Shown: in pieces, positions 1 to 15,324 of the stretch
Layout of the letters: every line of letters begins with the position of its first letter
Numbering within the stretch: position 1 is the stretch's first letter
IMG/VR virus record: IMGVR_UViG_3300032291_002123
Coordinates: 1 to 64,000 of that record
Length of the DNA: 64,000 nt
Origin: a virus
Direction: 5' to 3' (one strand)
Position numbers and translations under genes: made by a program
The notes under the pieces: generated by a model
The model's input: the letters and a program-made list of their open reading frames with translations, nothing else
Databases searched by the model: none
What the model was told of the DNA's origin: nothing

Positions 1-3000
1 ACTGAATCGACCTGCCAATCTGCTACTAGTTGTAAGTCAATCTGCTCTGGGAAGGCAGGGTTGTTTGGAACTTGAACTTTAATTGAGTCAATTTTACGAA
101 CAATAACGTCTTTACGTGGCTCAAGCACGCTGTTCAAACGAGTTTTCACAAAGTTGTCGTTAATGACAATAGAGCACCAATCACCAGGATTGTAAGACCC
201 GATAACAGGGTTCAATGAACCATTTACAGAAATCACAAAGTCTCCGACAGGCGGTCTAGATTCTTTTAAGAATCTTTCAGCATACTGATAGTAACCAGTT
301 TCGTCGTCATAGTTGTCTATCGGGTCAACAAACGCCGACTGAGCAGATTGAATGGGCCATTCTCTAGTTTCCTTTTTATCCAGCAAGGGCCAACCATCGG
401 CTAGCAACGACACTTCCGATGCACCAGAATAAGCAACTTCAGTCCCGCTGCCTACTCGGTTATCGTTGCCAACAACAAACATTCGTGTGGCAGAGTTTTC
501 AGCGTTTTCTGACATGCTTACGTTAGAGATGCTGCCTGGGTACTCAAATATCAACTTATCCGCACCGAACGCTTTAGGGTGTGCAACTTGACCTTTTGCT
601 AGTTTTTGGCTGGGCAGGGTTTTCAGGTATTCGGTTAGTGTAGGTGGATAGATTGGCGTAAGAACAAATTTCCTATTGAAAGTTTTAGTGCCATCCAAAT
701 TAGTAACTAGGCTTACATCGATTCGGTAGTCAAACCCCTCTAACGTGTTGCTATACCCCTCTAAAATTTCAGCAACAGTCAATAACTGGCTTCCAAAAAT
801 TGGGGTGGTAGTAGAATTTTTACTGCTATATTTATTGTCAGAAAAAGTCAATCCGCCTATAGAAGAGTTGGCAGGGTACTCGCCGTAAGTTCTATATAAC
901 AACTGAGGCTCTCTAATCGCCATAGGCGCTGGAATTACATACCCATCGGCTACCACGTTGACGGAAGCATAGGACGTTACCGATATCCTGCCAGTTTTTA
1001 TGGCTTTATTTCTAAAATCGCTGGTTTCTTCAGTGGACAATACGATTGAGCCAATATAAGAATCTAATACAGTTCTTTCTCCGTTAGCAAATGCAGAAAC
1101 TCCAGTAACATTTACTACGTCTCCAGATACTATGTTGTGGGCACCATCTCCTCCAAACGCCAACTCATTCAATCCACTGTTAATGTAAAACTGAGGCAGA
1201 GTAGGGGTTCCACTTAGACTTTTAATGACTCCGTTAACTTTTAGGTTGTAACTGAAAGTATTTTGAGTTACTGATGTAATTTTGATTCTTTGAAGGTTTT
1301 GGCTAAAAGCAGAGTATTTCAATCCAATTATTTGAATATATACTTCATCGTTTACTGAGAATCCATGATTTTCTGCAGTTACTGTTGCAACCGTGCCATT
1401 AGAAGACCTAGACAACCCAGTCAATCTAACTGAACCTGGATAATTAGCATTAGGAACTACAACAGCGGTGCCAGGCGTGCCCATAGCACCGCTGAGTAAG
1501 GCAGTGTCTGGCACATTAGCAGTTAAGTTTGGGGGCATAACTTTACGGCTATCAGTTCGATATCTATTGTCTATTAATATGAACGCAGCGTTGCTGCCAA
1601 AAGTTTCGTCGATAAAATAGTCTTTTACTGTCACATAAAAATCATTTAAAAAAGAATAATCTTCTTGCAAACCGCTAACAGTCATTTTGTCGCCAGGGCT
1701 TATAAACGGTCTATCTGACAAATTGTAAGTCTTCGCTGGGAAAAAAGCAGACGGCTTAGGAGATGGAAAAGTTATAGTGCCTGTGGACAAACTATCTGCT
1801 TCAGTGTCTATAAATAAAAAGTAGTTTTGGTCTACCTGTCTTACAGTTATTTCCTTATTGTATCGGGTTAAGTTGGGGACAGTCTGTACAAATCTTAGGT
1901 TGTAAGTCAAGAACCCACTCGCTGGAACGCTCTCATTAGTTACCACTCCCGTCAACGTCACAGAAGGAATTGGCACGTTATTTACGGTGCTTGTTTGACT
2001 CACTACTATTGATGCAGAAGCAGCGGCATCGCCATATATTGCTAAAGGAACGCTGTAGTTACTCTGAGCAACCACTAAGGTGCTAGAAGTACTTTCTAAC
2101 GGAAAGAGGGTCTTTGAACCAGGAATTACGGACGTGTTTACGCCGCCAACCCTAGAGGTGTCGTAAGGATAAAAAGCAAAAGATGACATCGAAGATATAG
2201 TTACCACCGTGTTTGAGTTAGGGGTGATTGGCAAAGGAGAAGATAAATTAATAGAAAGTTTTCCATTGCTACCAGCCCCAGGGGTTGGAGTGTAAGACAT
2301 GGAAGTTGCGGTTCTTGTGAAAGTAGTAGTGGTCGGGCCGCTCACGTTTCCAAAGTCATATATATTAATTGCCGACGAGTTTTTAGCGTTAGACAGCCCA
2401 CAGTAGAAAACTACGTTAGTGCTATTGGGGATACTGCTTACTTTCCAGTTACCATTTAGCCAAGAAGTATCTAAAGTGGCATTGGTGCTGTTATTACTGG
2501 CGCTAACAGTTGCAGCAAAACCAGAAATAGATAAACTAGCCCCGACGTCAATAAGGGGGTCTAAAGTATGAGCAGCAGCAAAAGACAGTCTTACATAGTA
2601 GTTAGAGTAACTAATTGCAGTCACCACTGGGTAAGAGGGTAGAGGTACTGGTGCCAAACTTAGTTTTTTAAGGTTACGGACAACAAAACTATCTCTGCCC
2701 AACTCCGGACATAACACAGAAAAACTATTGGCGTCTACAACAGTGTGGACTTTGTAGTTTCTGTAGATAGCACTAATGTTTTTGCCGCCTGGGACAGTAG
2801 TAAAGTCAGGGTAACTAGCAAAACTAGGACCGCCCTCTATGGCGAAAACCGCTCCTATATCTGACTGAAGTAGACCGTGTGGAGATTCACAAGTCACGAG
2901 CATTCCCTTAGCAGCGCCATTGTAAGATAATTCAGTAATAACAGGGCGAGTAAAATTAGGCGTTATAAATTCTCCAGAGCCAGAAGTAAATCCAGATAGT

Positions 3001-5735
3001 TTTACTGAAGAGCCAGAGCGTATGTTATTTCCTAATTGATTGTCGTCGCAAAAAACTTGCACTAGTTTTTCATTAGGATTCATCCCAAAAGATATATATT
3101 TAATGGAATTTACATTCACTGTGCGTGCTGGCTGGTTCACAATTTGGGGGGCAGATTCTATTTTATAAAAAATATTATTGGCATTGGTGGTCTGAGGTTC
3201 GTATGTTGATAAAATTGCAGATTTGCCAAACTCTACTGACTTAATTATGTATTCTTTTTCGTTTGCCATTTTTAACTCAGTCGTGTATGTAAAAGTATTT
3301 TCGTTCGGGACGTCATCAATTACAATAGTCTCACCACCATTTGACAGGCTCTTATAAGACTCATTATCAAACAAAATTTTAATAGAGTCACCAGGAAACA
3401 AATTATGATTAGGCGAATATATATAGGCTGTATAAGCACCTCCACTTCTAACAGTCGATGCAGATATAACCCTAGCCCTCACTAAAGAGTCTTGTATCTC
3501 TAGGCTGGTTCTAAACCTAGTTACGCTACCTTGCTTGGGTTGATTAACAGCGGCAGTAGGTAAGACAACCGTTTTATTGTCTTTCTTGGTTCTAAGAGAG
3601 TAGGAAAACTTATCTGCATCGTTTACCGCAGTTACTTTATATGTCCCGCCATAAGTTTCTTGGTCTTTGCTGTCAGTGCCAGCAGTAGATAATTCAATTT
3701 TTACAGAGTCACCAACGTTTAAAAGATGCCTACCGTTAGTAGTAATGGTGACAACGTTTGGAGTTTTTCCCTTAGCAGGAGTGTATCTAAGGTTAGTAAT
3801 GGGGAATATTGTCCCCGGTTCCTGAGTCAATGCCCCCCTTAACTCACTTGCTGCAGGGAAGTATTGAATCCAAGTAGTTCCGTTAACCGAAAAAGTAGGA
3901 TTTTCAGTCAAAGTAGTTAATGCTGTAACGTCTGATGGTCCGTCTGCGGTGACCACCCAAAAGTTGCCACTCACTTCTATATCTTTAATAGCCAAGTATG
4001 TGCCGTTTAGGTAATCCCTAGAATCACTCATCCCAGCAATTAAAAAGTTGTCGCCTTCTCTACAACTTACGTTTCTATCGATACCTAAAGTATTGGTTTT
4101 TACAACATAAAATTTTATTACAGTTCCGTATACAGAGTCGGAAACTACTTCATATTGTCTTACAGTGAACGGAGTTCCACCGTCTACTTCAAAAATTCTG
4201 TGATTGCCGTTGTATCTAGGGTAGTCCCAAGATATGTCATCGACACCTTCTACCCTAATTCGGTCATCAATATTAAATCCATGAGAATTTTTGCTAAAAA
4301 TTCTTAAAAATCCTCTTTCTTCTGAACCTTGAACAAAATTTTTGTTTAAGTCAAGAGGATTTAAATTAGTTAGCGGAATATTAAATCTGGGGTCAGTGTA
4401 TTTAGGGTCAGTGTAGGAAATAGTGTTGTCTGTGACCGCAGTAATAAGAAGCGTCTGATTGCCATTGTATTTAAAAGTATTAGTTGAAATATTTTTCTTT
4501 TTAGCAGAATCATAGACAGGCATCATTGCTGGCTTTTTGTCAGCCATAGTTACTTTAATCTTTGTGCCGTATTCAAACTGGTGTGGAGACGCCAACGTCA
4601 TAGTAACTACGCCGTTTATTCTTTGTACCTTGGTGACGTTTTCTCTTAAGAAACTTACCGATTGCCTCATGTATATAGGCGTTCTTTGAATTGTGCTGGC
4701 AACGTCAACAGGAGTAGCAAGACTATTGTCTAGGAAAATAGGGAAGTTTCTATCTCTAACTTGAGTTGGGTTACTTACCACAAACTTGACAGATTTGTTG
4801 GTAGGCAGTTCAGTAACAGTGTGAATTCCATCGAGCATTCGGTCAACGTTAGCCAACTCTATCCTCTGACCAACTACCAAACTGTGAGGCTCGGCGCATT
4901 GGATAGTGGCGACTCCATAAACGCTATTGGTAATAGAAAGTTGCTTAGTAGTAATATCTATCTGCTTAGTGATGCCCGGTTCAATAATTTCGTTTGGAAA
5001 ATCTAAATTAGTGAAGTCATTGAAAACGTTGTCTAGCAAGTCTCTTAGATATCCGTAGGTATCTACTCGAACGTTTACTGAAACGTTGTTGTATACGCCA
5101 GTGCTAGGCACTGGAAGTCTAGGGATATCTACATAAAAACTGTCAAGTTGAGGGTTAAAGTTTGCAGCAGGGGCGCTAGTTGTCTCAAGCACTGGATAAA
5201 AACCAGTGTATTTTCTTTCGTTGTTGGCAACAAAAGTAACTTCGACTTTGTTGGGGTTTCCGAATCCATCGCTAGCAGTGAGCGGAGCCTTTAAGTATGC
5301 GTTCTTTATGACCACCAGAACTGGCGAGGTAGGGGTGTCTTTAAATAAGTCGCAACTGTAGACGTTGCTGTAAGCCTTCCAAATAATTCTGTGGCTTAAG
5401 TAACTCGTAAACTCGGTAGCCGAGACAGAAAGACTTCTGCCAGTGAGGTCATAAGTGCGTCCCCAGATAATTCCGCCCCAAGTCGCCACGTTGTCACGAA
5501 CTACATACAAAGCAGTTCTACCTGGCATGGTTGAATTATATAAATCTAAGTTATTAGTTTGCTCCGAGATTGTGATTTTGCCCTCGAAGGCTCCGGGCTG
5601 CTTTAGTGAACGTTCGTAACTTACGTCTTCAAATGGGATTTCGCCGACAATTTTGTTTGACACGATATCAACCGTGTAGTACTTATACCTAGGTGCAGTA
5701 GCACTAGTTATAGGAACAATATTGCTGTCTGGCAT
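1..5735 (-). CDS. Baseplate/minor tail protein (Tal-like), 3' end outside window
   Basis: The reading frame is open from ATG 5735 to the left edge, at least 1911 aa; the stop lies outside the window. The start is preceded by a GAGGATGA ribosome site. The first ~130 residues (YKYYTVDIV.., ALYVVRDNVATWGGIIWGR, SATEFTSYLSHRIIWK) and the last ~330 visible residues (FDYRIDV, ENSATRMFVVGND, NPVIGSYNPGDWCSIVIND) resemble actinophage minor tail proteins of the Gp37/ReqiPepy6 type, which attach below the distal tail protein. Between them lie about 1300 residues of beta-rich repeats with a recurrent H-G/x-hydrophobic-x3-D-x-V/I-x-I motif, like phage FCCH-type repeats. It follows the tape measure and Dit genes, the expected position for a tail-tip protein. 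Role by position and weak similarity; host-receptor contact is inference. Confidence 0.8.
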   Translation of the reverse strand, partial: MPDSNIVPITSATAPRYKYYTVDIVSNKIVGEIPFEDVSYERSLKQPGAFEGKITISEQTNNLDLYNSTMPGRTALYVVRDNVATWGGIIWGRTYDLTGRSLSVSATEFTSYLSHRIIWKAYSNVYSCDLFKDTPTSPVLVVIKNAYLKAPLTASDGFGNPNKVEVTFVANNERKYTGFYPVLETTSAPAANFNPQLDSFYVDIPRLPVPSTGVYNNVSVNVRVDTYGYLRDLLDNVFNDFTNLDFPNEIIEPGITKQIDITTKQLSITNSVYGVATIQCAEPHSLVVGQRIELANVDRMLDGIHTVTELPTNKSVKFVVSNPTQVRDRNFPIFLDNSLATPVDVASTIQRTPIYMRQSVSFLRENVTKVQRINGVVTMTLASPHQFEYGTKIKVTMADKKPAMMPVYDSAKKKNISTNTFKYNGNQTLLITAVTDNTISYTDPKYTDPRFNIPLTNLNPLDLNKNFVQGSEERGFLRIFSKNSHGFNIDDRIRVEGVDDISWDYPRYNGNHRIFEVDGGTPFTVRQYEVVSDSVYGTVIKFYVVKTNTLGIDRNVSCREGDNFLIAGMSDSRDYLNGTYLAIKDIEVSGNFWVVTADGPSDVTALTTLTENPTFSVNGTTWIQYFPAASELRGALTQEPGTIFPITNLRYTPAKGKTPNVVTITTNGRHLLNVGDSVKIELSTAGTDSKDQETYGGTYKVTAVNDADKFSYSLRTKKDNKTVVLPTAAVNQPKQGSVTRFRTSLEIQDSLVRARVISASTVRSGGAYTAYIYSPNHNLFPGDSIKILFDNESYKSLSNGGETIVIDDVPNENTFTYTTELKMANEKEYIIKSVEFGKSAILSTYEPQTTNANNIFYKIESAPQIVNQPARTVNVNSIKYISFGMNPNEKLVQVFCDDNQLGNNIRSGSSVKLSGFTSGSGEFITPNFTRPVITELSYNGAAKGMLVTCESPHGLLQSDIGAVFAIEGGPSFASYPDFTTVPGGKNISAIYRNYKVHTVVDANSFSVLCPELGRDSFVVRNLKKLSLAPVPLPSYPVVTAISYSNYYVRLSFAAAHTLDPLIDVGASLSISGFAATVSASNNSTNATLDTSWLNGNWKVSSIPNSTNVVFYCGLSNAKNSSAINIYDFGNVSGPTTTTFTRTATSMSYTPTPGAGSNGKLSINLSSPLPITPNSNTVVTISSMSSFAFYPYDTSRVGGVNTSVIPGSKTLFPLESTSSTLVVAQSNYSVPLAIYGDAAASASIVVSQTSTVNNVPIPSVTLTGVVTNESVPASGFLTYNLRFVQTVPNLTRYNKEITVRQVDQNYFLFIDTEADSLSTGTITFPSPKPSAFFPAKTYNLSDRPFISPGDKMTVSGLQEDYSFLNDFYVTVKDYFIDETFGSNAAFILIDNRYRTDSRKVMPPNLTANVPDTALLSGAMGTPGTAVVVPNANYPGSVRLTGLSRSSNGTVATVTAENHGFSVNDEVYIQIIGLKYSAFSQNLQRIKITSVTQNTFSYNLKVNGVIKSLSGTPTLPQFYINSGLNELAFGGDGAHNIVSGDVVNVTGVSAFANGERTVLDSYIGSIVLSTEETSDFRNKAIKTGRISVTSYASVNVVADGYVIPAPMAIREPQLLYRTYGEYPANSSIGGLTFSDNKYSSKNSTTTPIFGSQLLTVAEILEGYSNTLEGFDYRIDVSLVTNLDGTKTFNRKFVLTPIYPPTLTEYLKTLPSQKLAKGQVAHPKAFGADKLIFEYPGSISNVSMSENAENSATRMFVVGNDNRVGSGTEVAYSGASEVSLLADGWPLLDKKETREWPIQSAQSAFVDPIDNYDDETGYYQYAERFLKESRPPVGDFVISVNGSLNPVIGSYNPGDWCSIVINDNFVKTRLNSVLEPRKDVIVRKIDSIKVQVPNNPAFPEQIDLQLVADWQVDS
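1100..4910 (-). repeat. Array of FCCH-like beta repeats inside the baseplate gene
   Basis: At least eight copies of a short H-x-(L/F)-x(3,4)-D-x-(V/I)-x-I motif are spaced through this part of the protein. They lie near nt 4890 (EPHSLVVGQRIEL), 4590 (SPHQFEYGTKIKV), 4295 (SHGFNIDDRIRV), 3735 (GRHLLNVGDSVKI), 3410 (NHNLFPGDSIKI), 2880 (SPHGLLQSDIGAV), 1370 (NHGFSVNDEVYI) and 1135 (AHNIVSGDVVNV). The same motif occurs twice in the neighbouring Dit-like gene. Repeat units are diverged, not DNA-level copies. Confidence 0.65.
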
Positions 5736-5771
5736 TTCATCCTCAGTCCGAGCGTCTTTATACTAACTATT

Positions 5772-7148
5772 CTAACCTATCCAGCCAGAGCGATATTTCA
5801 CCGTCACTGTTGGAGAGCCGCCACTGTTAGTGAAGTTTACGGCGTTGTTACCGGGGTTTAATTTCAACCAATCGACTGTAGTGTTTAGGGAGGCACGAGA
5901 ATTATCTGGAGTTCCTCTGTATAGGACAGTGCCGTTATACGTGTCAATGCTTAATGTGTCAGCGCCAACCAATGCGACGTTTCCAGTTGCTTGGGTAGCG
6001 GAGGAAACCTGCAATGAGACAGTTCCGCCAGCACCGATAGTGGCGTTTGGGTAGGTTTTGGTAAAAGTAAATCTACTGGTGTTTGCGCTTACGGTATTAG
6101 CAGTTACAGTGTAAGCGCCGTCAATCAATGGGTCAAAACAGTCTTTGATATAAATAGTTGCAGCATTAGCCAATCCGTGAGCAGTATTGGTAGTTACAGT
6201 CACAACGTTGCTTACTACCGTGATTCCAGTAATGCTTACTTTAGGGTTGGGGTAACTAAGAGTTGTGTTGGTAGCAGTGCTAATAACTACGTTAGTTTGG
6301 TTGAAACTGGTGACGTTAGTAATAGTTACAGTGTCTCCAGCAAAGAAACCGTGATTTCCAGAGAAGGTCAGGGTAGCAACTCCAGCAGAAGCCTCTCTAT
6401 TAGTGACAGTAGTAGAAGTGTTTGAGTTGCTAAACCCGTTTGCCCTAAGAGTTCTAGTTATCCTAAGAACTTGAGTGGCGTTGTTGGCGCTACTAAATTG
6501 GATAGCAGACGGTGCAGTAGACGCTCCGCTAATGGTAATAACCACGGGAACAGGCACATTACCAGAGTTTGTAACAGTGCTTGAGTAAGCAATGTTTGCA
6601 GTTTGATACCCGTCAACAGGGTCTACGCCATCGTTCCAATAATACTTAAGCGGGTCTCCAGCACGGAGTTGGATAGTGAAATCCATACGTCCACGAGCGT
6701 TGACGTTCTTAACAGAAGGTGAGCCAATTAGTCTCACGAAGGCAGCCTTCTTGTAGTCAGGCTCGTTCACAATTAGCCAGCCGCCAGTCTTTAATAACGG
6801 CGAAATGTATTCAAAAAAAGTATTTCTTGCGGTTGCAGCAACGCTTGCATCTGGAACCAAGATGCTACCGCTAAGAGTTAGAGAACGAGCAATCCAACGT
6901 CCACGAACGTCGTAAGAGCCGTCATCTAATCCACGCTGAATATCTGGAACGTCGGCGTTAGGTAAGTCCCACCAACCTTCAATGTCAGTGCAAACCCAAA
7001 CAACTCCAGTTGCTTCATCAGCAGTGTTAAGAGTTAAGCCGTTGATTTTGACATCAGCCAGCAACTTCATACCCGTTATGTGCGGATACGGCACCTTACG
7101 GAGAGTGTTATTGACAAGTCTGTTTTCTTGTGACTGATTGAGAGTCAT
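5772..7148 (-). CDS. Distal tail (Dit)-like protein
   Basis: 458 aa. Residues 1-180 match the N-terminal ring domain of actinophage distal tail/minor tail proteins (GVVWVCTDIEGWWDLP, RGRWIARSLTLSGSI, MDFTIQLRAGDPLKYYW). The C-terminus (LSIDTYNGTVLYRGTPDNSR, WLKLNPGNNAVNFTNSG) is the usual galectin-like tail domain. About residues 245-385 carry two inserted FCCH-like repeats (NHGFFAGDTVTI, AHGLANAATIYI), the same repeat type that fills the next gene. Its ATG overlaps the tape-measure stop by one base (TAATG), so translation is probably coupled. It would form the hexameric hub at the tail tip. Confidence 0.85.
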   Translation of the reverse strand: MTLNQSQENRLVNNTLRKVPYPHITGMKLLADVKINGLTLNTADEATGVVWVCTDIEGWWDLPNADVPDIQRGLDDGSYDVRGRWIARSLTLSGSILVPDASVAATARNTFFEYISPLLKTGGWLIVNEPDYKKAAFVRLIGSPSVKNVNARGRMDFTIQLRAGDPLKYYWNDGVDPVDGYQTANIAYSSTVTNSGNVPVPVVITISGASTAPSAIQFSSANNATQVLRITRTLRANGFSNSNTSTTVTNREASAGVATLTFSGNHGFFAGDTVTITNVTSFNQTNVVISTATNTTLSYPNPKVSITGITVVSNVVTVTTNTAHGLANAATIYIKDCFDPLIDGAYTVTANTVSANTSRFTFTKTYPNATIGAGGTVSLQVSSATQATGNVALVGADTLSIDTYNGTVLYRGTPDNSRASLNTTVDWLKLNPGNNAVNFTNSGGSPTVTVKYRSGWIG

Positions 7149-10100
7149 TAGATTCTTCCGCCCATGTTAAGTGCTGAGTTAAGTTTTTGAGCAACCATTG
7201 ACGCTACTTGTCCTTCGTCCATACCGGGAGCGGCGTTTACAGTAATGGAGACGTTGTTACCAGCAGCAGATTGCATGCTTGCGGTGTTTTGAAGTCTGTC
7301 AATAGAACCAGAGTTGATTGCGTCTAGAAGTGGTCGGTATCGGTAAGTAGACGCTGCGTTGATTACATACTCGCCAGCAGATAGCCAAGAGAGGATGTTG
7401 TCCGAGCGAGGTCCTTGCGCTCCAGCAACATTTCCGTTAGCAAACTTAGGTAGCCAACCGCCGTCTTTTTTCGGGGCGGCAAGTCTGTATTTACTCCCTC
7501 GCTTACCGTAGTTAATTTCCTGAAAGCCACCGTCTTTATTTGATTTAGTGGAAATATATAGAGGAAGTTTATTCATGTCATCCGCTAGTTTACTTTGAAG
7601 TTTTTCAGCAGTACCAGTTTGCCACTCAGCGGTAAGAGTTGTAGGCGTAGTCTGAAGTTGTACTGCCATCAAATCTTGGAAGCCAATCCCAAATCGTTCC
7701 ATCAAACTAGCAGGGTCTAGGGAGGCAATTAATGACTCCATGGCTCTTGACATATTAGGGTTTTGTTTTCTAATAGCAGCAATGATTATTTTTCTATCAA
7801 ACTGTGCAGCAACCTGACCAGCAAAATTTCCTCCTTGAAAATTTGCAATTTTTTCTAGGTCAGAACTTACTTCAGCAGCCTGTTCTTTAGTTGCAGATGC
7901 TATAGATGCTGCATACTTAGCGCCACCCTTACCCATACTAAGTAGTTGATTAAACGCCTTTTCACTTAACTTGCCTCTAGCAGCCATAAGATTTTTGGCA
8001 TAATCTGCAGCGGCGTCTGCCTGTTTATTTAGTGCGTCAAAGTAGTAACCGCTACTAAACCCGCTGGTGTCAAAGTCTTTGTAGTAATCTTTCCAAGAAT
8101 CTCCAGCGATGTCGTTATTCTTGGCAACGCTTATTGCCCACTTTTTGACATCTTCTTTGTTTTGTCTGAGAGGACCTTCAAAATCAAAGAAAGTGCCTAT
8201 AGTTTCAGTTAAAGTTTGATTAAATTGGTCTTGCTTAATCTTGGCAATAGCCATCCCCTCAATTGACTCTTTCACAATAAAGTCATATTCTTTTTGAGCG
8301 TTAGCAGAGCCATCTAAGTTGGTTACAGTTACGCCAAGAGATTTAGCGTATTCTTGAACACTCGCTCTTAGAGAATCCATTTCGGTATACGCAATTACAG
8401 TTTCCTCGCCAGTGAATTTTAAATTGTTGGTTAGGTAGTTCAATCCCTTACGAACTCCAGCCAAACCTTGAGTGCTAAATCTTTCGTTTAAGCCAGCGCC
8501 GAAACGTTCGAATGAGCCAGCCATATCTTGAGTTAAACTGCTGTAGGCGTTTAATGAGTTTACCCATCCAAAGCCATCAGCAGCCCTTTTCTGAGCACCA
8601 CCCAACTCTGCCATAGCAGTTTTTAAGTCTGTGACCTCTAATCTAAATGCTGTAAAGTGTTTTCCAGCCCCGCCGTTGCCAAGAATGCTGCTCCAGTTGG
8701 TTTTTTTGGCGTCATTGAATAGGGTTTTAAAAGAAGTTCGGGTATTTTTTGCTAAGCCAACAGTCTCTTTCATGTTTTGGTCAGCGACGCCAGCACTCCA
8801 GTTGGATAGAGCAACGCCGATTGCGGCAAACGCTGCAGCAAGACCCAACGCCCAGCCGATGCCTGGAATAGAAAGCAACGACGCTGTTATTCCTTTAGAA
8901 GCAACCGCAGTCGTAGCCTGAAGACCTGTTACAGCCGTACTTACTCCACCAACCGTAGTAGTAGTGGTAGCCATTGCAATTCCAGCAATCCTGCTTTGTA
9001 TACCTAGACCAACTAATGCCTTGCCAGCAAATCCAGCCGTCGCTGGTATAAATCTCAGCAGTATGAGGAATGGTGTTACGGCATTTTTAATCAACAAACC
9101 TACTATTGCGAATGCAAGAAATTGCACAGCCTTTTGCATTAGCCCAAGCGCAGCCACGAATCCAAAGATAGGTCCTACCGCATCAAGCAGAGGTTTTATA
9201 GTTTCTAAAGCCCTAGCAAATACTCTTAATGATTCGGCGACAGTGTCCAAAAACACAGAAGTTTGATTGTCATCAGCAACTACCTGAAGAATATTGACAA
9301 CTTGGTTTAGTACTCTTGCTAAGGCTGGTGCAGTTCTCACTGCCGCCTTAAGCAAAGAGTCGAAGTCGTTGTTTCCTTGTGCAAGGATATTCCAAAATTC
9401 TTTTACTTCAGGCATAGCACCTAGGTCAGTGAAAATATCAAATACGCCCTTAAAGGCGTTAAGTATTGCAATTGTGTTTTCGGCTGTCGACCTAAAATAA
9501 TTCTGAGCATTGAATGCTCTAATAGAGCCGTCCATTTTTTTGAACTCGCCAGTTGCTTTAACAAAGTAGTTAACAAGTAATTCTCCACCAGAGCCAGGAC
9601 CTGTTGTGTTAGAAATAAACTGCTTAATTCTCAGCCACAGATTGCCAAAAATTTCACCAAATTTAGATGCATATTCGCTAGACCTAGCGAAAAATCTTTG
9701 TATAGCACCGCCGTTATTTACCATGTCTGCGGCAAACTTGTCAGTTTTTCTGTTGAGGAAGTTGGTGAACTTAGTTAGAAGTGGGTCTGTAAGTTTTAGA
9801 TAAGTAAAGAAACCTCTAAGAGCGTTGCCAGCAGTAGTTCCGATGACGCCCAAGTTTTTAGCAATCGAGGAGAAAAACTCGCTCATTCCATTGATGGTGT
9901 CTTTAGTGAAAAAACTTTGACTAAAGTTTTTAGTAGCCTCACCCAAGCCTTTACCAACGTTGGCGATACCGTCTACTAAATTATCAAATGCTCCATTATT
10001 AAATAGAGTCTGCATTTGTTTTTGAAGAACTGGCAAGAAGCCTTTAGCGGCAGCCTCTCGCAACTGCTTCATTCGATATCGGTTTTCTACCAAGAACATG

Positions 10101-10834
10101 GCAAAAACTTTTTGAGACTTAGTTAAATCTGCGAACGGGTCTTTACCGCCAGCACCAGCCTTTTTCTTAGGATTGTTCAGTTCATCCTGAGCATCTTCGG
10201 CTTTATCCTTAGCCTTACGGTAATTAAGTTCTGCTTGCTTGTAGGCTAATTCAGCCTCACGGCGGGCACGGTTATCTGGCGGAAGATTTTGAACACGTGC
10301 AAGTGTTTCTCTTGCTTTTTCTAGTTTTAGGGCAGCACTTTCCTGTGCTAAAGCGGCGTCTTCGGCTGCAAAGGCTAACTCTTCCATCTCCTCACGGAGT
10401 TCTTTAATGCTTTTCTTAGCGCCACCTGCAGAGTTTGCAGCACTACTTACTGCAGCAGATATGCCATTGAAAGCCATTTTTCCAACGCTACTGGCAACTT
10501 TCATAGTCACCATCATGTTAGCCATGACTGTCATAGAAGATGCTGCAGAAGCAGTTACTCCAATAAGACCACCCAACCCACCGGCAAGTGCGCTAACGCT
10601 GCCTAGTAAGGCACCGATAGCCGCTTGAGCAAAGTAACCTTTTCGAGCCAAGGAAGTGAATTGATTGGCGTTAGCCATCATTTCTTGGGTTAATCCGCCA
10701 GAGAAGGCTTTACCTACAGATTTACCTTCGTCAGACGCAACTCCAGATAGACCTTTAAATCCGTCTCTAATATCCTTACGGACGTGAGTAGTTACAGCAC
10801 GAACGAGAATATGTGCTTCACCGACTACTGCCAT
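7148..10834 (-). CDS. Tape measure protein
   Basis: 1228 aa, the longest tail gene and directly downstream of the tail-assembly chaperone pair, as in most siphophages. N-terminal residues ~60-140 are Gly/Ala-rich and hydrophobic. A long charged coiled coil follows (about 145-225, EELREEMEELAFAAED). Around residues 545-690 there is a cluster of hydrophobic segments that could span a membrane during DNA ejection. The C-terminal part contains an SAGEYVINAAST motif common in actinophage tape measures. A strong AGGAGGTGAG ribosome site precedes ATG 10834. No lytic transglycosylase or peptidase motif was recognised. The product sets tail length and is ejected ahead of DNA. Confidence 0.93.
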   Translation of the reverse strand: MAVVGEAHILVRAVTTHVRKDIRDGFKGLSGVASDEGKSVGKAFSGGLTQEMMANANQFTSLARKGYFAQAAIGALLGSVSALAGGLGGLIGVTASAASSMTVMANMMVTMKVASSVGKMAFNGISAAVSSAANSAGGAKKSIKELREEMEELAFAAEDAALAQESAALKLEKARETLARVQNLPPDNRARREAELAYKQAELNYRKAKDKAEDAQDELNNPKKKAGAGGKDPFADLTKSQKVFAMFLVENRYRMKQLREAAAKGFLPVLQKQMQTLFNNGAFDNLVDGIANVGKGLGEATKNFSQSFFTKDTINGMSEFFSSIAKNLGVIGTTAGNALRGFFTYLKLTDPLLTKFTNFLNRKTDKFAADMVNNGGAIQRFFARSSEYASKFGEIFGNLWLRIKQFISNTTGPGSGGELLVNYFVKATGEFKKMDGSIRAFNAQNYFRSTAENTIAILNAFKGVFDIFTDLGAMPEVKEFWNILAQGNNDFDSLLKAAVRTAPALARVLNQVVNILQVVADDNQTSVFLDTVAESLRVFARALETIKPLLDAVGPIFGFVAALGLMQKAVQFLAFAIVGLLIKNAVTPFLILLRFIPATAGFAGKALVGLGIQSRIAGIAMATTTTTVGGVSTAVTGLQATTAVASKGITASLLSIPGIGWALGLAAAFAAIGVALSNWSAGVADQNMKETVGLAKNTRTSFKTLFNDAKKTNWSSILGNGGAGKHFTAFRLEVTDLKTAMAELGGAQKRAADGFGWVNSLNAYSSLTQDMAGSFERFGAGLNERFSTQGLAGVRKGLNYLTNNLKFTGEETVIAYTEMDSLRASVQEYAKSLGVTVTNLDGSANAQKEYDFIVKESIEGMAIAKIKQDQFNQTLTETIGTFFDFEGPLRQNKEDVKKWAISVAKNNDIAGDSWKDYYKDFDTSGFSSGYYFDALNKQADAAADYAKNLMAARGKLSEKAFNQLLSMGKGGAKYAASIASATKEQAAEVSSDLEKIANFQGGNFAGQVAAQFDRKIIIAAIRKQNPNMSRAMESLIASLDPASLMERFGIGFQDLMAVQLQTTPTTLTAEWQTGTAEKLQSKLADDMNKLPLYISTKSNKDGGFQEINYGKRGSKYRLAAPKKDGGWLPKFANGNVAGAQGPRSDNILSWLSAGEYVINAASTYRYRPLLDAINSGSIDRLQNTASMQSAAGNNVSITVNAAPGMDEGQVASMVAQKLNSALNMGGRI

Positions 10835-10848
10835 AACTACTCACCTCC

Positions 10849-11292
10849 TCAGGCTATTGGGGCGTCCAGAACTCCACCAAATGGGTCAGCAGAGTCTGCT
10901 TCCATTTTGGTAGGCGGAATGTATGACTTAGTCTCACTCTTCACAGAAGGATTAAACGTAACAATTTCTTCGTCTTCGTTGTACGAGCCAAATTCATTGT
11001 TGCTATTTCCATCTTCTGCAAATGATTTGTAGCGATATTCGGTTCCATACAAATCTTCAAAAATGCGCTCTCGTCTAGAGTCAGCCCATTTTCCTTGTTC
11101 AACGGTAGAGAAATTCATAGATTCGTCATAGAAGTAGTGAATGACATCTAACATGTCAGACACCTCCATTTCTCCTAATCTCAATCCGTTAAATAACGCT
11201 TTTCCGTTTACATAGTGCCAAAGGTCAACCGCCCAAATTAGGAGACCTTTGGCTCCTCTTCCGGGCGTCCTGCGTACTCCTCCAATAGCCAC
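10849..11292 (-). CDS. Tail assembly chaperone, frameshifted C-terminal ORF
   Basis: This ORF lies in the -1 frame relative to the upstream chaperone ORF and overlaps its end by 55 nt. The only in-frame start in the overlap is a GTG (11292) with no ribosome site, so it is probably made as a frameshift extension, as in lambda G/GT and most actinophages. The protein has the expected features of the T part: LLIWAVDLWHYVNGKALFN, then MEVSDMLDVIHYFYDES, then an acidic tail. It lies immediately upstream of the tape measure gene, whose product it would chaperone. As a free protein its real start is unknown. Confidence 0.8.
   Translation of the reverse strand: MAIGGVRRTPGRGAKGLLIWAVDLWHYVNGKALFNGLRLGEMEVSDMLDVIHYFYDESMNFSTVEQGKWADSRRERIFEDLYGTEYRYKSFAEDGNSNNEFGSYNEDEEIVTFNPSVKSETKSYIPPTKMEADSADPFGGVLDAPIA
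11238..11292 (-). promoter_or_regulatory. Probable -1 programmed frameshift window
   Basis: The two chaperone ORFs overlap here in a -1 relationship. The 0-frame reads CCA AAG GTC just before its stop and the -1 frame reads GCC AAA GGT. A classical X-XXY-YYZ heptamer is not present. The AAG to AAA re-pairing near 11243-11250, or a CCG to CCC slip a few codons earlier, are the best candidates. Confidence 0.5.
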
Positions 11293-11576
11293 GAAGCAAT
11301 TTGGCTTAGGCTTTCAACAGTGACAATTTTGTCTTTGCTGGTTATTAGAGCATCGAAACGCACTGCGCTTTCGTCCTCTAAAACCTTGCCAAAGAATGAA
11401 CTGATAACCTTTGCGGTTTCTGCTCCGTCTTCGCTGGCGCTGCGCTCAATAAACTCTAGGAAAACTTTTCCCTGAAGTCGTGGAAGGCACTTAAACTCCT
11501 CGCCGTGGAGTTTGAATGATAGTGGTTCTACTGCTGCTAAATCAGCACCAGAGCCAAAGTCCTTAAATCTAGGCAT
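11238..11576 (-). CDS. Tail assembly chaperone, upstream ORF (G-like)
   Basis: 112 aa, acidic. PLSFKLHGEEFKCLPRLQGK followed by helical residues is the typical start of actinophage G-type tail chaperones, which bind the tape measure and recruit the major tail protein. It ends PEEEPKVS inside the overlap with the -1 frame ORF. Start ATG 11576 has an AGAAAGA site 7-13 nt upstream. Confidence 0.85.
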   Translation of the reverse strand: MPRFKDFGSGADLAAVEPLSFKLHGEEFKCLPRLQGKVFLEFIERSASEDGAETAKVISSFFGKVLEDESAVRFDALITSKDKIVTVESLSQIASWLLEEYAGRPEEEPKVS

Positions 11577-11603
11577 CTTGTATTCTTTCTCTTATATGTC
11601 TTA

Positions 11604-11622
11604 GTTAGGCTAAATAGCCTTA
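11604..11622. other. Short hairpin upstream of chaperone genes
   Basis: AGGCTA-AA-TAGCCT inverted repeat in the 77-bp gap between the gp10-like gene and the chaperone ORF. No T-run follows, so it may be an RNA-processing or stability element rather than a terminator. Confidence 0.35.
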
Positions 11623-11653
11623 GTCAATTTTACTACAATAAAAATTAGACTAT

Positions 11654-12277
11654 TTACTGGACTCTGCCAACATTTCTAAAATGCTTGAGTTGAGTAGATA
11701 AGTAGTGGTTGGCTCTAGTGCCTGGGTGGTTAACCTTAGGGGTCATCACTTTTCGATAAGAGAACGTGTTTCTACCATATTTGTTAGATTTTACGTTCTT
11801 AAATTTGCCAGTAAAAACTAGCAAGCCGCCATCGTGGGCACGTATTGGGTGAGGTCTAGTTCCTTCGTGGTGGTAGAGTGCATAACTCCGCTGAGAGCCA
11901 ATCCAAATATATTGACCAGTGGCATTACCAGTGTGTCGAGCGTGGATTGACTTAGCCAACGCCCCTGTTCTCTTGCCAACCTTCATCTTTGCACCAGCAA
12001 CAGCCATTGCCGCAGCAGCGTCTAAATGCATCCACAACTCAGAAGGTTTACCTAAGGTAGTTTTACCATTTAGGAAGTTGTGCATCGCTGGCTCGTGGAA
12101 CTTTACATCGGTAACTTTCCAATTAAATTTAACCTTGGTGTGAGTAGTGGTCGTTCTGACCATGCCACCCAAGCCACCGCCGCCACCCCTGCGACCACCA
12201 CGACCACCTCGTCGTGCGCCTCTAGCAATACGTCCAGCACCCCAGACCACCCATGAGTCAGGTAAGCCATATGGCAT
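11654..12277 (-). CDS. HK97 gp10-like tail completion/neck protein
   Basis: 207 aa. The central region VGKRTGALAKSIHARH, then IWIGSQRSYALYHHEGTRPH, is the hallmark of the HK97-gp10/minor tail completion family. An unusual Arg/Gly-rich N-terminus (residues 15-40) could bind nucleic acid. It sits between the tail-terminator-like gene and the chaperones, as expected for the neck module. No clear Shine-Dalgarno; it follows the previous stop by one base, suggesting coupling. Confidence 0.75.
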   Translation of the reverse strand: MPYGLPDSWVVWGAGRIARGARRGGRGGRRGGGGGLGGMVRTTTTHTKVKFNWKVTDVKFHEPAMHNFLNGKTTLGKPSELWMHLDAAAAMAVAGAKMKVGKRTGALAKSIHARHTGNATGQYIWIGSQRSYALYHHEGTRPHPIRAHDGGLLVFTGKFKNVKSNKYGRNTFSYRKVMTPKVNHPGTRANHYLSTQLKHFRNVGRVQ

Positions 12278-12278
12278 T

Positions 12279-12785
12279 TTATGGAACCGCCATAGTGATG
12301 TTCATAACGGTTGTTTGAAATCCACCCTCGGGTGCAGAAACGTCTAGCGTGGCGATAACACCTAAGCCGTAGCCAGTGTCGTCCCACATATCAAACTCAC
12401 GAATGGTCTCCATAAGAACCCAAGAGTCAATAGCGCTCATGTGAGAACTCTGTTGGATTTTTTCTGCTGCTGGTGGGCGACCATTTTGACCCACCACAGG
12501 AACTTCTCTAGAAACACTGATTGCAACAGTTGCGCTTCTAGGCACGTTACAACGCTGCGGTTGCGTGGACTCATCGCCAGGCGAACCTAAATACATTTGC
12601 ATAAATGAAACTACAACTTGCTCGCAATCGACGGCAGGTTGCCCAACCATCCAATAACGGCGGTTTGGCAGTGGAACATTATAGGATTGATAAACTGACT
12701 CAATTCTTGACATAATTCCGTCAAGCATATTCTTCAGATGCAAAGCATCTGTAGACATTCCCGTAATGTCCACTGCCGTAGCCAT
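12279..12785 (-). CDS. Tail terminator-like protein
   Basis: 168 aa. DCEQVVVSFMQMYLG, then RSATVAISVSREVPVV, then IRE-D-WD fits the actinophage tail terminator family (lambda gpU role), which caps the growing tail tube. Position between connector and gp10-like genes supports this. The start is 3 nt after the previous stop, with GAGGAAG upstream. Confidence 0.65.
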   Translation of the reverse strand: MATAVDITGMSTDALHLKNMLDGIMSRIESVYQSYNVPLPNRRYWMVGQPAVDCEQVVVSFMQMYLGSPGDESTQPQRCNVPRSATVAISVSREVPVVGQNGRPPAAEKIQQSSHMSAIDSWVLMETIREFDMWDDTGYGLGVIATLDVSAPEGGFQTTVMNITMAVP

Positions 12786-12788
12786 TTA

Positions 12789-12992
12789 TTACTCTGCTTC
12801 CTCAGCAGGGGTCTCAACAACTGGGGCAGCCTCAACAACAGGCTCCACAACTGCCTCAACAACAGGCTCGACAACCTTCTCGACCTTTACAGGCTTTGGG
12901 GCTGCCTTTGGTGCAACTGGCTTTTTTGGTGCTGCTGGCTTAGCCGCACCAATCATGTCTGCTGCAGTGAAGTTGGTTTGTACTTTTGACAT
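12789..12992 (-). CDS. Small Ala/Pro/Val/Glu-rich protein
   Basis: 67 aa from ATG 12992, chosen over the upstream in-frame start because AAGAGGTGCGGT lies just before it. After a short ordered N-terminus (SKVQTNFTAADMIGAA) the protein is a Lys/Pro/Ala stretch and then repeated VVEPVVEA units, low complexity and probably extended. Short proteins like this occur in actinophage neck modules; function unknown. Confidence 0.7.
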   Translation of the reverse strand: MSKVQTNFTAADMIGAAKPAAPKKPVAPKAAPKPVKVEKVVEPVVEAVVEPVVEAAPVVETPAEEAE

Positions 12993-13011
12993 ACCGCACC
13001 TCTTCTTTCTT

Positions 13012-14118
13012 TTAGTTGTATAACTTGATTTGGAGGTTTCCAGATGCAAGTTCCGCTACGCTCTCAACACCATTTATGGTTTTGGTTGCGTATAGCGTCC
13101 AATATCCTGGGTCAATCATCCCAAGAGCATTATAAGCACTATTATACGGCACCGAGAAAGTTACCTTCTCGCTCGCTACGTTTACAGTAATGTCAGTAGA
13201 CGCTAAATCTACAGATTTCACTCCGTCGTAACCGCTTAGGGTTACTACTGGAGACCATCCAACTTCGTCAAAGAAAATGCTTACATCTTCATTAGCAGTT
13301 GAAGAGTCCCAAGCGGCTGGGGTGCTTTTAACTACAGATAAATCGTTTAAGGCACTTACCGTAAGAGGCAAAGCCTTAGGCGTGTATCGGCGAGCACGGG
13401 GCACATCTGGAGAGAATACCTTTGACTTACGACGAGCGCCGTCTGGGTTAGTTGTCTTAATGAACAAGTCAACTGCATACAAACCTGTGCGTAGTTCTTG
13501 AATAAAGTCTTGACTGTCCAAGATGGTATATGAAACACCTTGACGTGACACCGAAGTGATACGTTGTGGGAGAGCACAGTCATCGTCTCCAGCCCAGAGT
13601 TTTGCAAATTCAATGGCTAGAGTTCTGGCTGCCATTCTTCCAACTGCTGGAATAGGCGAGCCATAAGTGTAAGTAACTTCTACGTTACAAGGTGTCCAAG
13701 GGACACCAGCAGTTGCCTGCAAAGTCGAGTGGTCTACTAAGTAATAACTAGATTCTGGAAGCAAGTTTCCAGCACGGTTTCTGACAGCGTGAATCTTAGT
13801 TACGTTTTTGCCACGAAGTTTAATGCGAGACTCTGGGGATAATCCGTCTGCCACCAATTCGGCATAGTTGTCAAAGTCGTTGATTGGGATGTTGTACACC
13901 TCTCCACCAATCAACATACCGCCGTAGTTTCTAGAAGATGCACCTAAACGGTAAGCACGCTTAGCACAGACGTATCGCTCTGTAACAGTGGTGGTGCCTG
14001 TATATTTTCTGCCAGACATACCCCAAAGTAGGTAGGAGGCAGTTTCAGCCGCCTCCTGAGCAAACTCAGTCCCAGCGTAGTCACCTAAATCTGAAGGGTC
14101 TACCCACAAAACAGTCAT
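13012..14118 (-). CDS. Head-to-tail adaptor with extra C-terminal beta domain
   Basis: 368 aa. Residues 1-190 (DPSDLGDYAG, AAETASYLLWGMSGRKYTG, VPWTPCNVEVTYTYGSPIP, ARTLAIEFAKLWAGDDDC) match the HK97 gp6/SPP1 gp15-like adaptor proteins of actinophages, which seal the portal. Residues ~255-368 form an additional predicted beta-sandwich (DVSIFFDEVGWSPVVTLSGY ... YWTLYATKTING), which could decorate the neck. It is transcribed after the major tail gene, an order slightly different from the common connector-then-tail order. Confidence 0.7.
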   Translation of the reverse strand: MTVLWVDPSDLGDYAGTEFAQEAAETASYLLWGMSGRKYTGTTTVTERYVCAKRAYRLGASSRNYGGMLIGGEVYNIPINDFDNYAELVADGLSPESRIKLRGKNVTKIHAVRNRAGNLLPESSYYLVDHSTLQATAGVPWTPCNVEVTYTYGSPIPAVGRMAARTLAIEFAKLWAGDDDCALPQRITSVSRQGVSYTILDSQDFIQELRTGLYAVDLFIKTTNPDGARRKSKVFSPDVPRARRYTPKALPLTVSALNDLSVVKSTPAAWDSSTANEDVSIFFDEVGWSPVVTLSGYDGVKSVDLASTDITVNVASEKVTFSVPYNSAYNALGMIDPGYWTLYATKTINGVESVAELASGNLQIKLYN

Positions 14119-14140
14119 GTCCAGTCTCTCTTGTTAGTGA

Positions 14141-14185
14141 GACGGGCGACACGATTTGTATCACTACAAGCCGTGCCGCCCGTTT
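14141..14185. terminator. Long hairpin after major tail protein gene
   Basis: GACGGGCG/CGCCCGTT arms with a further CACG/CGTG and TTGTA/TACAA inner stem lie 12 bp after the major tail gene stop on the minus strand. There is no long T-run, so it may be a partial terminator or mRNA-stabilising hairpin that sets a high tail-protein level. Confidence 0.5.
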
Positions 14186-14196
14186 CTATTTGCTTA

Positions 14197-15324
14197 TTAA
14201 GCGGTTGGGTCTTCGTTCGAAGTGATAACACGGTCAACAGCAGTGTCTGCGTTGAAGTCGACGTTACCTGGAACGTTGTAACCAGTTGTGTTGGCGTTAG
14301 GCAACGTGGTTACAGCGGCGTAGGCTGGAGCCTCGGTGACCGAGTTGACAACAGTGATTCGAGCAGTGTTACCGACAGTTGCAGTAACGTTAGCCACAGG
14401 TGCAGTTCCAACGATGGTGTAGGTAGCAGTGTTAGACGATAGGTTAACCGCAGTAACAGTTGCGCTAGCAGCGTTGAAGTCAACACCTAGGTTCTCAACG
14501 CTAAGAACGTCACCAGCAGCAAGAACAGGTGCAGCGCTGAAGGTTACAACTGCGTTGCTTGTGTTAGCAGCAATCGTGGCACCAGAGATGGTGACGGTTG
14601 AAGCGTCAACAACACCAGACTTAGTGAAGTACATCTGGTTGGTGCTGTTGTCAGACCAAGTGTAGAAGCCCTTCAAGCCAGTAGGTGCCCAGTCAGTGCG
14701 TGCATATGAGTATGGACGCTCTGCGGCAGCAGGGAACTCCCAGCGACCATCGACACCTGACTCGAACTGGGTGTTGCCCAAGCCGTAGCCTTCGAAAGTG
14801 GTAGCGAGCATACCGTTCTCAATAACACGGTCACCCGACTGACGCAACTTAGCAAATGGGAATACCCAGTGGAAGTAAGGAAGGGTTGAAGACTTCTTAC
14901 CGTTAGCGATTGCGTGTGACCATGACTCGATGGCTACACCGTAACCAGCAGGGTCGTCGCCAACACCAGGTGATGCCCAACCAACAGACTTGACGTCTGG
15001 GTTAGCAAAGGTTCCTAGGTTCTTGCGAAGTAGCAAACCACCAGAAAGAAGTGCAGTTAGTTCTGGGTCTGGCTCACAGATTGCGAGTTCCATGGTGATA
15101 CGCTTCAAGGTGTCTGGAGACTTGTAGGTCACACAAACAACGCCGTTAGCGTTCTTCTCGGTGATTTCGTCGCCCTCTTCATATTCAGGGGTGAACGAAA
15201 CACGCATAAATGCAGACGTGGTGTATGAATCGCCAGGTCCGTTTAGTAGGTTGCCAGCGGCATCCAAACGGGTGACACGAATTGACACACCCTGGATGCT
15301 TGCAGCATATTCTTGAGTAGCCAT
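14197..15324 (-). CDS. Major tail protein
   Basis: 375 aa. The N-terminal half (SIQGVSIRVTRLDAAGN, FMRVSFTPEYEEGDEI, KRITMELAICEPDPELTALL) and WEFPAAAERPYSYARTDWAP are typical of actinophage tail-tube proteins. The C-terminal ~130 residues are Ala/Thr/Val-rich with an FCCH-like repeat (APVLAAGDVLSVENLGVDF), related to those of the tail-tip genes, and probably project from the tube. Strong AAGGAGAACAG site before ATG 15324. A hairpin follows the gene. Confidence 0.82.
   Translation of the reverse strand: MATQEYAASIQGVSIRVTRLDAAGNLLNGPGDSYTTSAFMRVSFTPEYEEGDEITEKNANGVVCVTYKSPDTLKRITMELAICEPDPELTALLSGGLLLRKNLGTFANPDVKSVGWASPGVGDDPAGYGVAIESWSHAIANGKKSSTLPYFHWVFPFAKLRQSGDRVIENGMLATTFEGYGLGNTQFESGVDGRWEFPAAAERPYSYARTDWAPTGLKGFYTWSDNSTNQMYFTKSGVVDASTVTISGATIAANTSNAVVTFSAAPVLAAGDVLSVENLGVDFNAASATVTAVNLSSNTATYTIVGTAPVANVTATVGNTARITVVNSVTEAPAYAAVTTLPNANTTGYNVPGNVDFNADTAVDRVITSNEDPTA

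Follow-up and report, generated by a model that had tools for sequence, protein, structure and literature searches.

Predicted barrel-type repeats shared by the tube, distal tail and hub proteins of a virus related to Microbacterium phages

Small beta domains that recur on phage virions have been described before. According to PMC9022992, which relays Fraser et al. 2006, many phages carry immunoglobulin (Ig)-like domains in their major tail (tube), baseplate and fibre proteins; the domains are present or absent between relatives and are placed outside the protein core. PMC13033339 reports that Ig-like domains of the capsid and tube of phage Douge label mycobacterial cells. Another small domain, the endosialidase beta-barrel (Pfam End_beta_barrel, PF12195), is found in the solved structures of phi92 (4hiz) and K1F (1v0e) endosialidase; a preprint (PMC12632334) describes three sites for polysialic acid, of which the K1F barrel is one, and names the barrel as a hotspot of host discrimination. 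Neither the domain nor the habit is new in itself. Here we describe a repeat of predicted barrel fold in three tail proteins encoded by IMG/VR virus record IMGVR_UViG_3300032291_002123, a sequence of 102,065 bases whose first 64 kb are hereafter called the window: the Tal-like tail hub/tip protein, the Dit-like distal tail protein and the major tail protein (MTP). Unlike the Ig-like domains, this repeat would be an endosialidase/FCCH-type barrel, present in 2-13 copies inside the hub protein, and unlike the barrel of the endosialidases, it is repeated and resides in tube, Dit and hub proteins.

Repeats in the Tal-like, Dit-like and major tail proteins

The Tal-like gene (3..5735, minus strand; 1911 amino acids seen) was assigned by PHROG 1885, minor tail protein (E 9.4e-19), and by its homologues; the contig end truncates its C-terminus, which falls about 4 residues short of the relatives in the homologue alignment. 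The Dit-like protein (5772..7148, minus strand; 458 amino acids) matches PHROG 5577 and 202 and passes Pfam SPP1_Dit (PF22768) with 35.5 bits at a cut-off of 25, while the MTP (14197..15324, minus strand; 375 amino acids) was assigned by PHROG 792 (E 2.4e-23) and alignment. When the window Tal was compared with 50,697 phage records by tblastn, 56 were matched, and both Tal ends were matched in 8 records representing 7 differently named phages (Microbacterium phages and DSL-LC01). By sequence, the kin of the contig are Microbacterium phages and the Actinomycetia phage DSL-LC01. Six annotated homologue loci were compared (Cece, Pumpernickel, Zooman, A3Wally, Big4 and DSL-LC01). The order MTP, adaptor, tape measure, Dit-position gene, Tal is common to these loci where they are annotated and covered. 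Tal directly follows Dit, and its N- and C-parts are homologous to annotated minor tail/hub proteins, as would befit a gp27-like hub.

Repeats in the window were sought with a hidden Markov model (HMM) whose training loci excluded the window and six close loci; this leave-window-out profile was used solely for the window search with its shuffles and for the HHalign runs. It recovered eight copies in Tal, two in Dit and one in the MTP, all on the minus strand. The Tal copies comprise residues 274-322 (4770..4916; 39.0 bits), 374-444 (4404..4616; 24.5 bits), 483-526 (4158..4289; 20.3 bits), 659-714 (3594..3761; 38.5 bits), 770-819 (3279..3428; 22.9 bits) and 1447-1498 (1242..1397; 33.4 bits), a partial copy at 1531-1558 (1062..1145; 17.8 bits), and a weak match at 1083-1110 (7.3 bits, E 0.029). 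Those in Dit span residues 255-302 (6243..6386; 44.9 bits) and 312-368 (6045..6215; 27.7 bits), and the MTP copy spans residues 257-307 (14404..14556; 26.8 bits). The same HMM found no repeat in the other 97 of the 100 window open reading frames (ORFs) of at least 80 amino acids, and the 156 ORFs in the 38 kb of the contig beyond the window held none either. In 200 shuffles per protein, stray matches numbered one for Tal, none for Dit, one for the MTP and none for the tape measure, the best of them reaching 9.9 bits. HHalign gave the best four Tal copies probabilities of 95.9, 94.8, 85.7 and 75.4%, as compared with at most 2.0% for the controls (three shuffles and the tape measure). Together these results showed that the repeats of Tal, Dit and MTP are related above chance. 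A preliminary description, prepared from the sequence alone, had held that Dit and MTP carry one or two of the repeats seen in Tal; profile alignment, which it had named as the means of disproof, bore this out.

The same description had proposed that about 1300 residues of repeats split Tal into N-terminal and C-terminal family parts. Both parts align to the six homologues around an expanded middle: the N-part (residues 1-255; 4971..5735, minus strand), which holds the N-domain of the hub and, in degenerate form, a first barrel, and the hub C-part (residues 1606-1911; 3..920, minus strand), which is 42-48% identical to the homologues. Their separation, about 1350 residues, was as proposed, but repeats were recognized for only about half of it, confined to residues 274-819 and 1447-1558 apart from the weak match. 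In the middle stretch between them (residues 831-1440; 1416..3245, minus strand), neither the HMM nor HHalign nor phmmer assigned anything beyond two weak, sub-threshold stretches; HHalign on it gave 3.6% and 1.6%, and segments wholly within it had no phmmer relative at 1e-4 among the loci compared. Relative to the repeats on either side, these roughly 610 residues are enriched in Ser and depleted in Lys, Arg and Glu. Such a stretch, in a gene at the contig end, could be taken as a sign that an assembly or reading-frame artefact of the metagenome contig has inflated Tal. However, the frame is open across 1911 codons, Tals of 1630-1732 amino acids are present on independent contigs, and one relative (L088) confirms Tal residues 1-348 at 89% identity, and we regard an artefact as very improbable. 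The DNA itself shows no long direct repeats, just short chance-like families, which indicates that the expansion is old.

Fold and family of the repeat

A structural view of the repeat was obtained from the 655-residue Tal of a relative (L021), for which AlphaFold2 with 55 sequences gave a mean predicted local distance difference test (pLDDT) score of 80.5, mostly above 85 in the repeat region. This model matched the hubs of Douge (8zdo; Z score 10.4, 193 residues aligned at 3.6 Å), T5 (9ioz; Z 10.0, 176 residues at 3.1 Å) and Bxb1 (Z 9.0). Residues 118-195 matched the FCCH barrel of an E1 enzyme (6o82_C; Z 8.6, 2.1 Å) and residues 292-381 the FCCH domain of UBA1 (Z 7.5). On the strength of this model, the L021 Tal is a gp27-like hub into which FCCH-like barrels have been inserted, and the match of residues 118-195 implies that the conserved Tal N-part contains such a barrel too. 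In a weaker model of the window Tal, residues 633-745, which enclose the copy at 659-714, matched the phi92 endosialidase barrel (4hiz) with a Z score of 8.2 (2.4 Å, 84 residues, 21% identity) and the K1F barrel (1v0e) with a Z score of 7.5, and residues 519-621 matched UBA1 (Z 7.4). The structure matches listed for the repeat stretches of the L021 and window models are barrels, which is what bears on an Ig-like fold; by analogy, the repeats are best read as doing what Ig-like domains do in other phages, and are not classed as Ig-like.

Sequence profiles pointed to a more specific neighbour. A profile built from 68 repeats, to which the window contributed 8, found 4hiz in the PDB at E 7.7e-6 through a single stretch, and none of the 21 PDB rows with E values of up to 10 was an E1 enzyme. 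The sequence profile thus puts the phi92 endosialidase, and not E1, nearest among solved structures. The top row of this search, the TAL effector 3ugm, was dismissed because no stretch of it passes alone and its score is the sum of many weak short matches. A phmmer search of window Tal residues 625-830 against the PDB gave 0 matches. With Pfam, E1_FCCH (PF16190) scored 19.6 bits in the window Tal and 17.1 in Dit against a cut-off of 29.5, End_beta_barrel scored 12.4 against 35, and no endosialidase family was found in the window Tal, Dit or MTP. Among the relatives, the Tal of L014 clears the E1_FCCH cut-off (33.1 bits), and for PF12195 the Tals of L018 and L014 reach 32.5 and 22 bits, respectively. 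At E 0.01, End_beta_barrel was assigned to 5 of the 68 single repeats and E1_FCCH to 3; for whole Tals, E1_FCCH was found in 10 of 55 short (E 0.01) and 7 of 20 long proteins (E 0.001), and End_beta_barrel in 2 of the 20 long ones (E 0.001). PHROG families that bear the names major tail protein, tail fibre and virion structural protein match the repeats as well. The label FCCH-like, as first applied to these repeats, therefore holds for the predicted fold and not for the nearest sequence match, and the name should not be taken as a link to ubiquitin.

Copy number and movement among relatives

The Tals of the six homologues have N- and C-parts and carry repeats in the same gap as the window Tal, but they are shorter: DSL-LC01 has 659 residues and the others 1241-1247 or 1450, as compared with 1911 in the window, and it is the middle that varies. 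A scan of viral contigs with the single window Tal protein found no relative, whereas querying with alignments, one of the Tal C-part and one of the MTP, succeeded. From these we took the best 80 of 153 Tal C-part loci and the best 80 of 507 MTP loci, a best-scoring subset whose fractions do not stand for the whole population; the numbers of repeats are minimum values, obtained with a counting profile trained on these loci, the window included. Together with the named phages and the window, the loci provided 108 ORFs with both Tal ends. Of these, 84 are distinct, and five of the 84 are cut by a contig end. The gap between the N- and C-parts spanned 260-1486 residues, with a median of 284.5 (n=84), the window having the largest, and each of the 84 Tals contained 2-13 recognized repeats, all 343 of which sit in this gap. 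Gap length and repeat count were correlated (Spearman 0.64). Two or three barrels are the usual state of Tal, and the window represents an extreme expansion at one end of the range. These figures support the variability that had been suspected.

One repeat was present in 74 of 79 complete distinct ORFs matching the MTP profile. Of the five repeat-free ORFs, one is the MTP of DSL-LC01 and three are a second ORF right behind another MTP. Such a second, longer MTP-profile ORF adjoins the major tail gene in L150 (1498-2835), L156 (2139-3476) and L154 (5939-7498). At least one repeat was found in 57 of 90 complete distinct Dit-position genes, with a maximum of 7, and 95 further ORFs bear repeats. 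In Microbacterium phages (L002, 9828-12614; L004, 8967-12659; and kin), an extra gene with 8-10 repeats lies between the tape measure and the Dit-position gene.

It had been suggested that the repeat spreads between tail genes. For the identity comparisons between genes, 206 of 962 repeats were removed as duplicates. Ten distinct repeat pairs within a locus were at least 60% identical, 9 of them cross-gene, and the mean best cross-gene identity within a locus was 0.372, as compared with 0.337 (standard deviation 0.007) after label shuffling, where 0 of 500 shuffles reached 0.372. When repeats were compared with those of sister phages, this excess vanished: among 2082 comparisons, cross-gene identity was higher within the own phage in 1015 and lower in 969. 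The excess over shuffled labels therefore reflects clade-level history or composition. The 14 best same-locus repeat pairs were 62-72% identical in DNA. On both counts, recent copying within a phage was rejected as a general claim.

Individual gains and losses nevertheless point to movement. The MTP of DSL-LC01 lacks the repeat when aligned with the window MTP, and the Tal of L014 has an extra repeat at about residues 181-262 that is absent there in its sisters L016 and L018, although the hub ends of L014 and L016 are 83-86% identical. The best matches of this extra repeat were the gene before Tal in L016 (E 5e-20), the Dit of L014 itself (1e-17) and the Dit of L018 (9e-14), followed by an extra repeat elsewhere in the L018 Tal (2e-11) and the next unrelated locus (2.5e-6). 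Its protein identity to the best matches was 43-52%, and its DNA identity to the own Dit and L016 copies was 60-61%, which shows that the gain was not recent. Judged by these sequence matches, repeats do move, in that the Tal of one relative gained a repeat that is nearest to Dit repeats. The proposed spread thus has single cases in its favour, while the sister comparison weakens it as a general process. Overall, the preliminary observation largely holds and its interpretation is supported in part.

A possible glycan-binding decoration of the tail

The relatedness, positions and variation of the repeats are shown by the sequences, and their barrel fold by the model of a relative. We lean, with modest confidence, towards the repeat being an outward beta-barrel module that serves as multivalent, low-affinity, glycan-binding decoration. 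It would be a small surface module with the fold of E1 FCCH and kinship to the endosialidase beta-barrel domain, and tailed phages with this type of Tal may place it in outward loops of their virion proteins. In the window, barrels would decorate the tail tube (one per MTP), the Dit ring (two) and mainly the Tal hub, where the array would separate one half of a gp27-like fold from the other. The hub would presumably function as in relatives with 2-3 copies, and extra copies could provide multivalent, low-affinity contacts with host surface glycans, their number changing through old duplication, through loss and, occasionally, through transfer from one tail gene to another. Outward exposure, glycan binding and a gain from copy number are suggested by analogy with the sugar site of the K1F barrel and with Ig-like surface binders, and by carbohydrate-binding modules in the same proteins. 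A Pfam scan of 36 Dits (35 of the 59 listed plus that of the window, chosen among those of more than 400 amino acids) found CBM_4_9 in 16 and fn3 in 5. In a single case, the Tal of L037, CBM_4_9 occupies the N-C gap itself (residues 273-404; 27.2 bits versus a cut-off of 25.9).

Several findings weigh against this proposal. A shared barrel fold alone says nothing of function, the endosialidase matches at Z 7-8 are tied with those to unrelated barrels (Sen1, LumP), and the model of window Tal residues 1-840 is weak (9 sequences, pLDDT 59.4). The window clears no Pfam cut-off for FCCH or End_beta_barrel, about 610 of the 1350 or so inserted Tal residues match no profile and no relative, and recent within-phage copying between genes is unsupported by the sister comparison. 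In addition, barrels in the L021-group Tals have a mean pairwise identity of 0.33-0.34 versus 0.51-0.62 for the hub parts; this greater variation counts for the proposal if it marks adaptation, but such low conservation may reflect weak constraint instead.

The last point is shared with the main rival, in which the array is a structural spacer: the barrels would bind nothing, the array would determine how large, stiff or widely spaced the tail tip is, or shield it, and copy number would drift near-neutrally. The wide variation in copy number, the middle of Tal diverged beyond recognition and a cross-gene similarity no higher within a phage than to its sisters would all fit a spacer. The carbohydrate-binding modules in the same proteins, once in the same Tal gap, and the nearest solved sequence match being an endosialidase, of a family in which the K1F barrel binds sugar according to the preprint, speak for glycan binding instead, and we consider a mere spacer unlikely. 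Still less probable, in our judgement, is the reading suggested at the outset, that the repeats form side fibres, with the Tal array providing three long extended receptor-binding rods whose copy number sets their reach. The window gap, the longest of the 84, is consistent with it, and a trimeric hub would bear three arrays, the hub proteins of the Douge baseplate being trimeric according to PMC13033339. However, the weak window model yields no readable extended shape, and the fibres of the relatives may be encoded by separate large genes after Tal that are annotated as minor tail protein.

If the barrels bind glycans, Tal copy number would be a readable host-attachment trait for phages that are mostly uncultured. 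Promiscuous surface domains of phage virions are known mostly as Ig-like, and the barrels would add a second fold class, related to a capsule-binding domain, that circulates through tube, Dit and hub genes and multiplies inside the hub. A bolder extension, which seems doubtful to us at present, is that the hub acts as a landing site for glycan-binding modules, with swaps between CBM_4_9 and barrels and moves from Dit to Tal, that the number and kind of Tal barrels tune host attachment over evolution, and that the glycan coat of an actinobacterial host could be predicted from copy number. We found no paper that connects barrels of the FCCH-like or endosialidase type with tube, Dit and hub proteins, a weak negative since most subscription journals lay outside the coverage; by title or the start of the abstract, none of the papers listed for FCCH and phages concerned phage tails, and in one paper FCCH was an unrelated abbreviation.

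The remaining genes of the region include the tape measure (7148-10834, minus strand) and the head-tail adaptor (13012-14118, minus strand). Upstream of the tail genes lie giant ORFs of 3866, 2976 and 1737 residues (24884-36484, 37179-46109 and 18428-23641, respectively; minus strand). Over window positions 7148-15324, comparison with the relatives L090 and L091 gave 86% identity for the MTP and 78% for the adaptor, as opposed to just 28-37% for the tape measure, Dit and Tal, and this contrast in sequence identity suggests an exchange of the tail-tip module.

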